From a virus: a DNA stretch of 22,719 nucleotides. Positions within the stretch are counted from its first letter, which is position 1; each line of letters begins with the position of its first letter. The position numbers and the translations under genes are program-made. The notes under the pieces are model-generated. The model did no database searches. It was not told the origin of the DNA and saw nothing but the letters and a program-made list of their open reading frames with translations. This document shows, piece by piece, positions 891-19,722 of the stretch. Where the stretch lies: positions 1 through 22,719 of the IMG/VR virus record IMGVR_UViG_3300034190_001886. One strand, written 5' to 3'.

Positions 891-921
891 ATTAATTAAA
901 CAACCTATAGAGGAGAAAATT

Positions 922-1563
922 ATGGCATTAACCATTTCAGAACAATCATCAGGCGGTGATTACGAAGTCCTTCAACAAGGACAATACAACGCCACATGCT
1001 ATCGTGTGGTAGACATTGGTACCCACCAAGAATCTTATGAAGGTGAAACTTTTAAAAGACACAGCGTTATTCTTGTATGGGAAACTTCAGATAAAATGAT
1101 GAAGGATGGAAAACCTTTTTCAGTAACTCAGCAATACAATCTTTCTTTACATGAGAAAGCCAAGCTAAGACAACACCTTGTATCTTGGAGGCAAAAACAA
1201 TTTACCCAAGAAGAGCTTGGTGGTTTCGATCTAACTAAAGTATTGGGTCTAACTTGTAAATTAGATGTGGGTCACACCAGTGGTGGTAATCCAAAAGTAT
1301 TAGCAGTCTATGCACCTGAAGGTGGCGTACAGAAAGTTGCAACCGTCAATGAGCAAATAGCTTTTGATTGTGATGCATATGCTAACGATGATAAAGCTGA
1401 GTGCGATAAGTTCGTTCAGTTACCTGAATGGATGCAAGACAAGATTGATGAATCTTTTGAAGTCAAAGCAGGTCACAAAGTTGAAGAGCCAAAGACAGAA
1501 GAGTTTGGTTCTTTAGATGCTATTGCTGATGACAAGGATGAAGGAGAAAACATCCCATTCTAA
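922..1563 (+). CDS. SSB-like protein with SSB C-terminal tip
   Basis: A 213-residue protein of a family common in phages and plasmids. The body (about 10-145) is beta-rich with a conserved block around SLHEKAKLR...SWR...FTQEEL. The end is a long acidic linker finishing in DEGENIPF. A terminal acidic-Ile-Pro-Phe peptide is the hallmark of bacterial SSB proteins (E. coli SSB ends DDDIPF), where it docks repair and replication partners. I therefore infer a phage ssDNA-binding protein that protects replication intermediates and may recruit host enzymes. It lies directly upstream of a RecE-like exonuclease. AGAGGAG just before the ATG is a strong ribosome site. No diagnostic OB-fold motif can be read by eye, so the ssDNA-binding role rests on the tail and the context. 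Confidence 0.7.
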   Translation: MALTISEQSSGGDYEVLQQGQYNATCYRVVDIGTHQESYEGETFKRHSVILVWETSDKMMKDGKPFSVTQQYNLSLHEKAKLRQHLVSWRQKQFTQEELGGFDLTKVLGLTCKLDVGHTSGGNPKVLAVYAPEGGVQKVATVNEQIAFDCDAYANDDKAECDKFVQLPEWMQDKIDESFEVKAGHKVEEPKTEEFGSLDAIADDKDEGENIPF

Positions 1564-3258: not shown

Positions 3259-3479
3259 TCTTCTGACCGTGCAATGATTATGGCACCGTCTACTTCGATG
3301 TCGTTGAATTGCAATCCACTAATTTGTTGATCCTCATATTCAAAAATTACATCACGAACCAACAATCTAAGTAAGCCTGCTTTCTGATACAGGTTAAGTC
3401 TTGCATAAGTATCAATGACCTCATCTGCTGTCATCTTATTGGTTTGCACCAACACATCGTCTTTCTTTTTACCAAACAT
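3255..3479 (-). CDS. Unknown small phage protein
   Basis: A 74-residue product, last gene of the minus-strand small-gene operon. A Lys-rich start (MFGKKKDD) is followed by an amphipathic helical stretch (residues about 18-45) and a beta-like acidic end. AGAGGAC about 5 nt before the ATG is a good ribosome site, which supports real translation. Its stop codon overlaps the stop of the plus-strand nuclease gene, leaving no intergenic space. No family recognised. Confidence 0.6.
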   Translation of the reverse strand: MFGKKKDDVLVQTNKMTADEVIDTYARLNLYQKAGLLRLLVRDVIFEYEDQQISGLQFNDIEVDGAIIIARSED

Positions 3480-3492
3480 ATTGTCCTCTCTA

Positions 3493-3705
3493 TTAATGGT
3501 TTAGTTTAACATACCCATGTTTATTTACATGAGCTAAGTGGCTACCGTCAAAAGCCCTAAGCAACCAACCTTCTTTTGAATCAAGAAACGATTCTATAAT
3601 ATCAGGCTCCTCTACATTACCCATGTTGTACCTATCACGATAAAAACATTTGTATTTGTAACACGCCATTTCAAATGTCAGCTTAAGCCTTCTTAGTTTT
3701 GGCAT
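3493..3705 (-). CDS. Unknown small basic phage protein
   Basis: A 70-residue product with a very basic N-terminus (MPKLRRLKLTFE), a Tyr/Cys/Lys-rich centre (ACYKYKCFYRDRY) and a C-terminal half that could form a small beta hairpin. A GGAG ribosome site precedes the ATG by about 5 nt. The gene start overlaps the end of the 33-codon gene at 3683. It may contact nucleic acid given its charge, but that is a guess. Confidence 0.55.
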   Translation of the reverse strand: MPKLRRLKLTFEMACYKYKCFYRDRYNMGNVEEPDIIESFLDSKEGWLLRAFDGSHLAHVNKHGYVKLNH

Positions 3706-3784
3706 CCTTTCTCCGTTTTCTTAATAATTTAAAAAACTCTTTTTCATCGTAAAACTTTTTCGTTACCTCATCCCAAAATTTCAT
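3683..3784 (-). CDS. Candidate 33-residue basic miniprotein
   Basis: A short frame from ATG at 3784 to TAA at 3683 encodes 33 residues, about a third Lys or Arg, beginning MKFWDEVTKKF and ending in a basic run. AGAGGTG four bases before the ATG is one of the better ribosome sites in this operon. The frame fills most of the gap between the neighbouring genes and overlaps the next start by 23 bases, as other junctions here do. Length alone makes it uncertain; ribosome site and packing argue for it. Confidence 0.45.
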   Translation of the reverse strand: MKFWDEVTKKFYDEKEFFKLLRKRRKDAKTKKA

Positions 3785-3793
3785 ATGACACCT

Positions 3794-3943
3794 CTAGTCG
3801 TGACGAGTCCATCTACAATGTAAGATGTCCTCTTTGTTGGTACTGTTGTTGTCCAACCATTTTAAAAGTATGTAAGTGGATAAAGCCATGACACAAAGAA
3901 ATAACCAAATCACACACACCCAAAATAATATTGTTCCAATCAT
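3794..3943 (-). CDS. Candidate 49-residue single-span membrane protein
   Basis: ATG at 3943 overlaps the TGA of the preceding gene as ATGA and is preceded by AGGTGG at 5 nt. The product starts MIGTILFWVCVIWLFLCVMAL, one hydrophobic segment covering residues 2 to about 27, and continues with a polar tail of about 22 residues. That is the shape of a single-pass inner-membrane miniprotein. Phage proteins of this kind include holins, superinfection-exclusion proteins and host-inhibiting toxins; the sequence does not choose between them. Start context and hydrophobic segment make it more credible than its length suggests. Confidence 0.55.
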   Translation of the reverse strand: MIGTILFWVCVIWLFLCVMALSTYILLKWLDNNSTNKEDILHCRWTRHD

Positions 3944-4191
3944 TTGAACCACCTGCTTTCAAATAACCACTTACGCATTGGCTCGATCCAAGTTGTCTTG
4001 GGTTTACCTCTTCGATGAAAAAAGTCTTCTACTCTTCTGCCACTTGCATAGGTCGTCACAATAGATGCTTTATCTTTGTAATTAGGGTCCTGTTTGTCCC
4101 ATTGCGAATAAATGGAAGTCCAAGTCTTATTCATTTGTTCTTGCAACAACTCCTCTTTTCTTTCCTCTAACTTATCACTGTGCTGTGTCAT
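3940..4191 (-). CDS. Unknown small phage protein
   Basis: An 83-residue charged protein with an N-terminal helix rich in Glu, Lys and Gln (residues about 3-27) and a C-terminal half containing RRVEDFFHRRGKPKT and several Trp residues. A GGAG ribosome site lies about 7 nt before the ATG, and the gene overlaps the upstream one by 17 bases. The basic, aromatic C-terminus could bind nucleic acid. No family recognised. Confidence 0.55.
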   Translation of the reverse strand: MTQHSDKLEERKEELLQEQMNKTWTSIYSQWDKQDPNYKDKASIVTTYASGRRVEDFFHRRGKPKTTWIEPMRKWLFESRWFK

Positions 4192-4411
4192 CTTGGCACT
4201 CCTCAGCTATGTAATCTTTTGACTCCTTAAACATGTTAGCTGTTAGCATGTTTACTGAAACATAATCTTGTGGGTTGTGTTTATAAGAATCCAAGAAAGT
4301 ATTGAGCTTGTTATTGGACATGCCTGTTACCAAGTCACCTTCCATAAACAAGTCTTTCTTGACATAAGTTCTACTGCGATTCCACACAGTTATATTAGTG
4401 AGTTTTTCCAT
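4175..4411 (-). CDS. Unknown small phage protein
   Basis: A 78-residue product beginning MEKLTNITVWNRSRTYVKKD, likely two beta strands, then a mostly helical half ending in an acidic tail. GGGAG seven bases upstream is an acceptable ribosome site. It overlaps both neighbours by 17 bases, the tight packing of the whole operon. No motif or family recognised. Confidence 0.55.
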   Translation of the reverse strand: MEKLTNITVWNRSRTYVKKDLFMEGDLVTGMSNNKLNTFLDSYKHNPQDYVSVNMLTANMFKESKDYIAEECQDDTAQ

Positions 4412-6230: not shown

Positions 6231-6247
6231 CACTTTTCAACACTTTT
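6228..6247. repeat. Tandem 10-bp direct repeat at the small-gene promoter
   Basis: CAACACTTTT occurs twice head to tail with no spacer, overlapping the -35 at 6225-6230 and extending upstream of it. A 10-bp period puts both copies on one face of the helix, as expected for a site bound by two adjacent dimers of a small regulator. The left copy ends at 6237 and the right copy at 6247, two bases into the methyltransferase stop codon. Confidence 0.6.
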
Positions 6248-6815
6248 ATTTAATTATTTCTAGCACATATCCGTGTACCTTTTTTGGTGTTTTTATGGTC
6301 ATGTCATGTATATTGCCATCGACTTTCTTACATAGTTTCCAAAAGGTATCTCTACCTTGGTCAGCTATAAGTATGGTGCCTGTTGCATGCTTTACCATAT
6401 TCAGTAAGTTGTCTACATGTTCTTCCCAATAACATATGTCACACCCTGTTATTAAATGTGGGTGCTTCCAACCATGATTAGGTATATCTAAGTAATCTTC
6501 ATAAAACACATCCAATGATTGTTTGTTCATTTTTGCAACTGCTTCTACAAACGGTTGTACATTTATATCTTTTTCTATACCCACCACATCCATACCTTGT
6601 CGTTGCATGTAAGTCATAAGCACACCCCAACCACACCCAATGTCTAATGCAGTTTCATGTTTGGATAAGTTGTAGCGTGAAAGGAAGTCCATCATTAACA
6701 GGGTTGAATCCCATACCTTGTTGCCATGAAGTGTAGGTGCTTCATGTTTACGCTTTATCTTTCTGATCTCTTTATCTGTTGAGGTAGGTATCTTTATGTT
6801 AAAAAGTGTTCGCAT
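6246..6815 (-). CDS. Class I SAM-dependent methyltransferase
   Basis: A 189-residue Rossmann-fold methyltransferase. Motif I is ALDIGCGWG (56-64) with D58; the acidic residue ending strand 2 is E81 (VVGIEKD). Motif IV corresponds to LITGCDICYWEEH (D126) and is followed by ILIADQGRD (D152). The GNKVWDSTLLMMDFL lead-in and the late DxGR motif resemble protein-lysine methyltransferases of the METTL20/METTL21 group more than DNA methyltransferases; there is no DPPY or PC motif. The substrate may be a host or phage protein. The ATG at 6815 has no Shine-Dalgarno and lies only about 7 nt downstream of the predicted transcription start, so the message would be nearly leaderless. It could be the first gene of the small-gene operon by read-through. 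Confidence 0.8.
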   Translation of the reverse strand: MRTLFNIKIPTSTDKEIRKIKRKHEAPTLHGNKVWDSTLLMMDFLSRYNLSKHETALDIGCGWGVLMTYMQRQGMDVVGIEKDINVQPFVEAVAKMNKQSLDVFYEDYLDIPNHGWKHPHLITGCDICYWEEHVDNLLNMVKHATGTILIADQGRDTFWKLCKKVDGNIHDMTIKTPKKVHGYVLEIIK

Positions 6816-7054: not shown

Positions 7055-7342
7055 ATGTCATTACACATGTCTGAATCTCTTGCATCTAATCCATGCATAG
7101 GTGTATGTTCAGTAACCCAATGGGGTGATGAAACTTGTCGTGGGTGTGGTCGTAGTAAAGATGTTCTTGAAAACGGTGTTTGGAATACATTGACGGATGT
7201 ACAAAAGAAACTCGTTGTTATGGAATGTTGGGAGCGTGGCTATTATCCAAGACAAAAGCTTGAGCTTATATGCGAAGAGATGGGTATAACAATGGTTAAA
7301 GCCAAAGAATTAATATTTAAAGATAACGCAAAGTTAGCTTAG
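7055..7342 (+). CDS. DUF1289 Cys-cluster protein
   Basis: A 95-residue protein with the full DUF1289 signature: NPCIGVCSV...GDETCRGCGRS, giving C14, C18, C28 and C31, a likely metal (Zn or Fe-S) site, followed by the VWNTLTDVQKK helix typical of the family. The family is common as a 50-70 residue protein in proteobacteria and its function is unknown; this copy has an extra helical C-terminus of about 25 residues (LICEEMGITMVKAKELIF) that could be helix-turn-helix-like. TAGGAGG upstream is a strong ribosome site overlapping the RHH stop. It is the second gene of a plus-strand island between two minus-strand operons and may be a host-derived cargo gene. Its stop overlaps that of the 852-residue late protein. 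Confidence 0.85.
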   Translation: MSLHMSESLASNPCIGVCSVTQWGDETCRGCGRSKDVLENGVWNTLTDVQKKLVVMECWERGYYPRQKLELICEEMGITMVKAKELIFKDNAKLA

Positions 7343-19452: not shown

Positions 19453-19722
19453 TTACTTTTTAAGTTTTCCGCCACGACCCATCTTTTTAAGTCCGCCACC
19501 ACGACCAAGTTTCTTGACTCCTGACTTAGCACCACCCATAGCCATTTTCTTAACTCCTGACTTGGCACCGCCCTTAGCCATTTTTACGACTCCTGACTTA
19601 GCTGTTTCAGCACCTTGTCTGCTTCGTCTTGCTGACGCACCGCCACCCATAGCCATTTTCATAATACCGCCTTTAATCATTGGCTTGGCTTTAGGTCCTA
19701 AACCTTTATGCTTCTTTTTCAT
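19453..19722 (-). CDS. Lys/Gly-rich basic protein with three 12-residue repeats
   Basis: An 89-residue protein, extremely basic and almost free of acidic residues. AKSGVVKMAKGG, AKSGVKKMAMGG and AKSGVKKLGRGG are three successive 12-residue repeats (41-76), preceded by IKGGIMKMAMGGG and followed by LKKMGRGGKLKK. It should be disordered and bind DNA or a negatively charged surface. Similar repeat proteins occur beside head genes in marine phages. A role in binding packaged DNA or in assembly is inferred. Start and end overlap neighbours tightly. Confidence 0.65.
   Translation of the reverse strand: MKKKHKGLGPKAKPMIKGGIMKMAMGGGASARRSRQGAETAKSGVVKMAKGGAKSGVKKMAMGGAKSGVKKLGRGGGLKKMGRGGKLKK
19495..19602 (-). 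repeat. Three tandem 36-bp coding repeats
   Basis: Three successive 36-bp units encode the 12-residue AKSGV(V/K)K(M/L) repeats of the basic protein. The copies differ at a handful of bases, mostly at the alternating Lys/Met/Arg positions. Copy number is likely to vary between related phages by slippage or recombination. Confidence 0.7.

Follow-up and report, generated by a model that had tools for sequence, protein, structure and literature searches.

A 22.7-kb virus record, referred to below as the window, encodes a 213-residue protein that we interpret as a phage single-stranded DNA-binding protein (SSB) whose C-terminal IPF tip docks on SSB-tip pockets, with host proteins as the most likely partners in the lineage of relatives that ends in Phe (probability roughly 0.6). 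According to this proposal, the protein would coat phage ssDNA with an OB-type core. Its long tail, acidic and disordered, would end in a C-terminal Ile-Pro-Phe-COO- that may dock into the SSB-tip pockets of DNA-processing enzymes. In the Phe-tip lineage, the likeliest partners would be host SSB-interacting proteins such as Pol III chi, DnaG, PriA and RecO; host machinery would thereby read DNA coated by the phage SSB, and the RecE-like exonuclease encoded next to it may bind through this tip contact as well. The parts of this scheme that we infer are ssDNA binding, tip docking and partner identity. The proposal gives a likely function to PHROG 862/6599, a family of phage proteins that is widespread but unnamed, with members in marine and freshwater phages and in phages of Vibrio, Pseudomonas, Xanthomonas and Pelagibacter. 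It also offers a natural experiment on what a tip only a few residues long may decide, namely which enzymes, those of the host or those of the phage, handle the ssDNA of a phage.

An unnamed phage protein family with a predicted OB-type fold

The gene for the SSB-like protein occupies positions 922-1563 (+) of the window and follows a Shine-Dalgarno-like AGGAG at 911-915 (+), read from the sequence. Its product matches PHROG 862 (E=3.4e-10) and PHROG 6599 (E=1.7e-6), both listed as unknown function in PHROG, and among 21 family members scanned all 21 matched the former and 20 the latter. A Pfam search with the window protein returned no family at E up to 1, in keeping with the original prediction that the family generally goes unnamed, and a few public records already label its members 'putative ssDNA binding protein'. 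Relatives were found in 42 phage records by tblastn and at more than 100 loci in scans of IMG/VR. Pfam scans of 21 family members did not find DUF669 (PF05037), and DUF2815 (PF10991) was matched by neither these members nor the window protein. Searches of PDB sequences with the single protein and with two alignment profiles of the family gave no meaningful match, and Pfam and profile comparison revealed no sequence link to any known SSB family.

An AlphaFold2 model built from an alignment of 48 sequences has a pLDDT of about 90 for residues 20-180, followed by a disordered tail. The predicted OB-type core spans residues ~14-140 (961-1341, +) and is followed by a C-terminal helical segment (residues 150-184; 1369-1473, +) with model helices at residues 150-154, 158-166, 169-176 and 179-184 and an LPEWMQDKI motif conserved in the alignments. 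The best solved match found by VIA-align is PrgE, an OB protein that binds ssDNA (8s4s, Z 8.3, 4.3 A over 111 residues; 8s4t, Z 8.1, 3.5 A over 105 residues), at a Z of about 8 that, by the tool's own note, can be reached by chance or by unrelated folds. Because of this, we place weight on the uniform character of the match list instead: nearly all of the matches listed are OB folds, and those below PrgE include LEF-3, the RadD C-terminal domain, Teb1, Rim1, RPA and SSBs at Z 4-6. Foldseek gave no match to the model below E 0.01 in the PDB and matched predicted structures named DUF669 at E ~1e-5 and TM ~0.4. The model supports the SSB-like protein originally proposed, with a predicted OB-type fold and a predicted disordered acidic tail.

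The protein could instead be an OB-fold adaptor, or a binder of dsDNA or RNA, whose tip came to resemble that of SSB by convergence. This would fit the lack of a sequence link to known SSBs and the equal binding of ssDNA and dsDNA by PrgE, the solved fold closest to the model (PMC11137577). Since the gene has an SSB-like genome position and its product an SSB-like tail architecture, and since no PF00436 SSB was found in 18 phage records and the window, we consider a non-SSB role quite unlikely.

The C-terminal tip is conserved across divergent relatives

The ORF at 922-1563 (+) ends in ...ADDKDEGENIPF followed by TAA. Positions 1480-1563 correspond to residues 187-213, and the acidic tip DDKDEGENIPF together with the stop codon lies at 1528-1563 (+), so the acidic IPF ending that had been read from the sequence, and its coordinates, were right. 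Between the helical segment and the tip lies a disordered variable linker (residues 186-202; 1477-1527, +) with pLDDT below 50.

To count tips we required an acidic stretch and then [IVLMT]P[FWY] as the very last residues, a strict definition that 92 of 116 distinct full-length relatives satisfied and that none of 1,209 other ORFs of at least 80 aa from the same loci did, which rules out a chance origin of the tip. IPF ends 68 of the 116 relatives, and the totals for PF, PW and PY are 81, 14 and 4, respectively. Mean pairwise identity across the family is 0.45 in the core, falls to 0.10-0.16 (10-16%) in the linker, which cannot be aligned, and is 0.58 over the last three residues. Clustering at 60% identity left 26 representatives, of which 20 have an aromatic last residue and 15 end in P[FWY]. 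Homologs without the acidic IPF end, which the original prediction had named as evidence against it, do exist; they are a minority. An aromatic last residue is missing from L015, L016, L021, L025, L116, L128 and L134, and an internal PF occurs within the tail of L013, L015, L021 and L025. As judged from these alignments, the tip is supported as a conserved functional element, and its conservation across very divergent phages suggests that it is probably a route for bringing DNA enzymes onto phage DNA.

In T7-type SSBs, the tail and ssDNA compete for the OB groove. The acidic aromatic tail of the present family might likewise act mainly in cis, competing for the groove and tuning both affinity and ssDNA specificity with no dedicated partner. 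The C-terminal tail of Enc34 ORF6, which controls ssDNA specificity (PMC5686142), offers a model for such a role, and some relatives that end in EW or TW still carry an acidic tail. An exact IPF in 68 of 116 members is nevertheless tighter than charge alone demands, and a mainly cis function seems unlikely to us.

Linkage to phage exonucleases

The next gene (1639-2460, +) starts 75 bp past the stop of the SSB-like gene and encodes a RecE-like, exonuclease VIII-type PD-(D/E)XK exonuclease (PF12684, E=1.5e-18; PHROG 412 'exonuclease VIII', E=3.4e-53), confirming that the SSB-like gene directly precedes a RecE-like exonuclease. This arrangement recurs widely, with a same-strand exonuclease near the SSB-like gene in 130 of 137 loci and the enzymes drawn from six PHROG families (412, 298, 2139, 107, 10477 and 724). 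The exonuclease lies downstream in all of these loci but L009 and L219, which have it upstream, and three of the seven loci without one end less than 900 bp from the SSB-like gene. Zobellviridae and Pradovirus have it between the genes for a DNA polymerase and a 5'-3' exonuclease. The SSB-like protein would immediately coat the ssDNA that an exonuclease releases.

Given this linkage, it is possible, if less probable than host docking, that the main target of the tip is the neighboring phage exonuclease, the RecE-like enzyme in the window, which would be tethered to ssDNA for recombination and the resection of ends. Besides the 130 loci and six exonuclease families, this reading can draw on the SSB of phage HK620, whose tip recruits a phage protein (PMC5928155), and on the Phe-clade members without an aromatic end (L015 and L134), both of which belong to the loci where no neighboring exonuclease was found. 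Yet the same Phe tip is kept across different exonuclease families, so that each family would need a tip pocket, and the terminal Phe is retained in L006, another locus in which no neighboring exonuclease was found.

The gap between the two genes is filled by a perfect 10-bp inverted repeat (1570-1629, +; GGGTTGCTAG / CTAGCAACCC) with a predicted hairpin of about -18 kcal/mol. This hairpin persists in all five of the nearest relatives, with a terminal pair lost in one of them, and is possibly an attenuator, a processing site or a protein-binding site.

Tip type and phage DNA polymerase

Tip type correlates with the presence of a phage DNA polymerase. A family A polymerase was detected in all 13 records from lineages whose proteins end in Trp or Tyr or lack an aromatic tip; none of the 19 records from the Phe-tip clade, the tipless member L015 included, yielded one. 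Searches for family B and C polymerases in the Phe-tip records plus L134 and L136 found none, and PHROG 17 was seen only in two polymerase-carrying records included as positives. Several of the Phe-tip records searched are fragments and five are circular, complete genomes; the Phe-tip phages have helicase or primase genes and no detectable DNA polymerase. One potential counter-example, an annotated 'DNA directed DNA polymerase' in MW202692.1 (L222, 36220-37014), was rejected: the protein is an AAA/DnaB-like ATPase that matches AAA_25, KaiC and DnaB C-terminal domains, and the label is likely a mis-annotation.

In the tree, the Phe group forms a single clade (99/97 support) with two tip losses, and the association with polymerase therefore amounts to one deep event and not many. 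We treat this correlation, which comes essentially from one deep split, as a lead and not as proof. Still, the lack of a detectable phage polymerase in the Phe-tip lineage favors docking on host proteins, and known partners of the SSB tip include Pol III chi, DnaG, PriA and ExoI (PMC5872125). The precedent of HK620, the one phage SSB of this kind with a tested tip in the literature consulted, counts against host docking, as its partner is a phage protein. The interpretation originally offered is thus supported in part. On balance, we favor host docking for the IPF lineage and regard docking on the exonuclease as its main rival.

A more speculative reading, which we hold to be rather doubtful, is that the family has two wirings. 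Phages without a polymerase would keep a tip identical to that of host SSB (IPF), through which ssDNA coated by the phage protein would be plugged into the host replisome, and carriers of a family A polymerase would have been re-keyed, their tips changed to Trp or Tyr so as to suit partners encoded by the phage and to escape the pockets of host proteins. The limited set of literature that we searched describes neither the SSB-like family nor its split between Phe and Trp/Tyr tips nor its link to six exonuclease families.

Other genes in the window and its relatives

Upstream of the SSB-like gene, the window carries a divergent primase-helicase gene (3-824, -) that is cut by the window edge. 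A full-length copy with Toprim_3 and VapE-like domains is present in L005, which ranks among the window phage's closest relatives; there it adjoins a gene for a Mom-family protein (930-1568, -; PF25680, E=1.7e-33) that suggests anti-restriction DNA modification. In L006, a glucosyltransferase gene near the SSB-like relative (3400-4314; PHROG 842, beta-glucosyl-HMC-alpha-glucosyltransferase, E=1.5e-49) suggests glucosylated DNA. Elsewhere the window encodes a SAM-dependent methyltransferase-like protein (6246-6815, -; CMAS, E=1.1e-6), a cysteine-rich DUF1289 protein (7055-7342, +; PF06945, E=2e-9) and a small, very basic protein with repeated units such as GGAKSGVKKMAM and no Pfam match (19453-19722, -).

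Comparison with known SSBs

The tail of the window protein resembles that of bacterial SSB (PF00436), in which an acidic C-terminal stretch is likewise followed by IPF (DDDIPF in E. coli), and the OB-type fold predicted for the window protein is a further likeness. Unlike bacterial SSB, the window protein has no PF00436 match and has a larger core and a helical C-terminal segment. T7 gp2.5 and Enc34 ORF6 (DUF2815) are phage OB SSBs with an acidic C-terminal tail and with genes that likewise lie in a phage replication module, but the window family has no Pfam DUF2815 match, and neither protein is among the structural matches listed by VIA-align. PrgE, from plasmid pCF10, is the nearest solved fold (8s4s, 8s4t), although this protein of 144 residues shares only 10% identity with the window protein.

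A further comparison is with the SSB of phage HK620 (HkaK), which has been placed in DUF669 and belongs to PHROG 743. This protein binds ssDNA, and its last six residues, NDYPPF, are required to bring Sak4 onto SSB-coated DNA (PMC5928155). The sequence profiles of HK620 SSB and the window family are not detectably related (hhalign probability 0.3%, and no PHROG 743 match). Modeled as a yardstick, HK620 SSB gave a mean pLDDT of 72 with five unequal models, and its best PDB match was again PrgE (Z 8.0). The two proteins have at least 10 matches in common, DUF669 proteins among them, between their two top-50 lists from the viral library. Both models are OB-type, their elements follow one another in the same order, and both proteins have a disordered tail with an SSB-like Pro-Phe tip. 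They differ in that the partner of HK620 SSB is the annealase Sak4 whereas the window family sits with an exonuclease, and in that ssDNA binding and tip function are proven for HK620 and predicted for the window protein. Tip-dependent recruitment by phage SSBs is thus already established in HK620.
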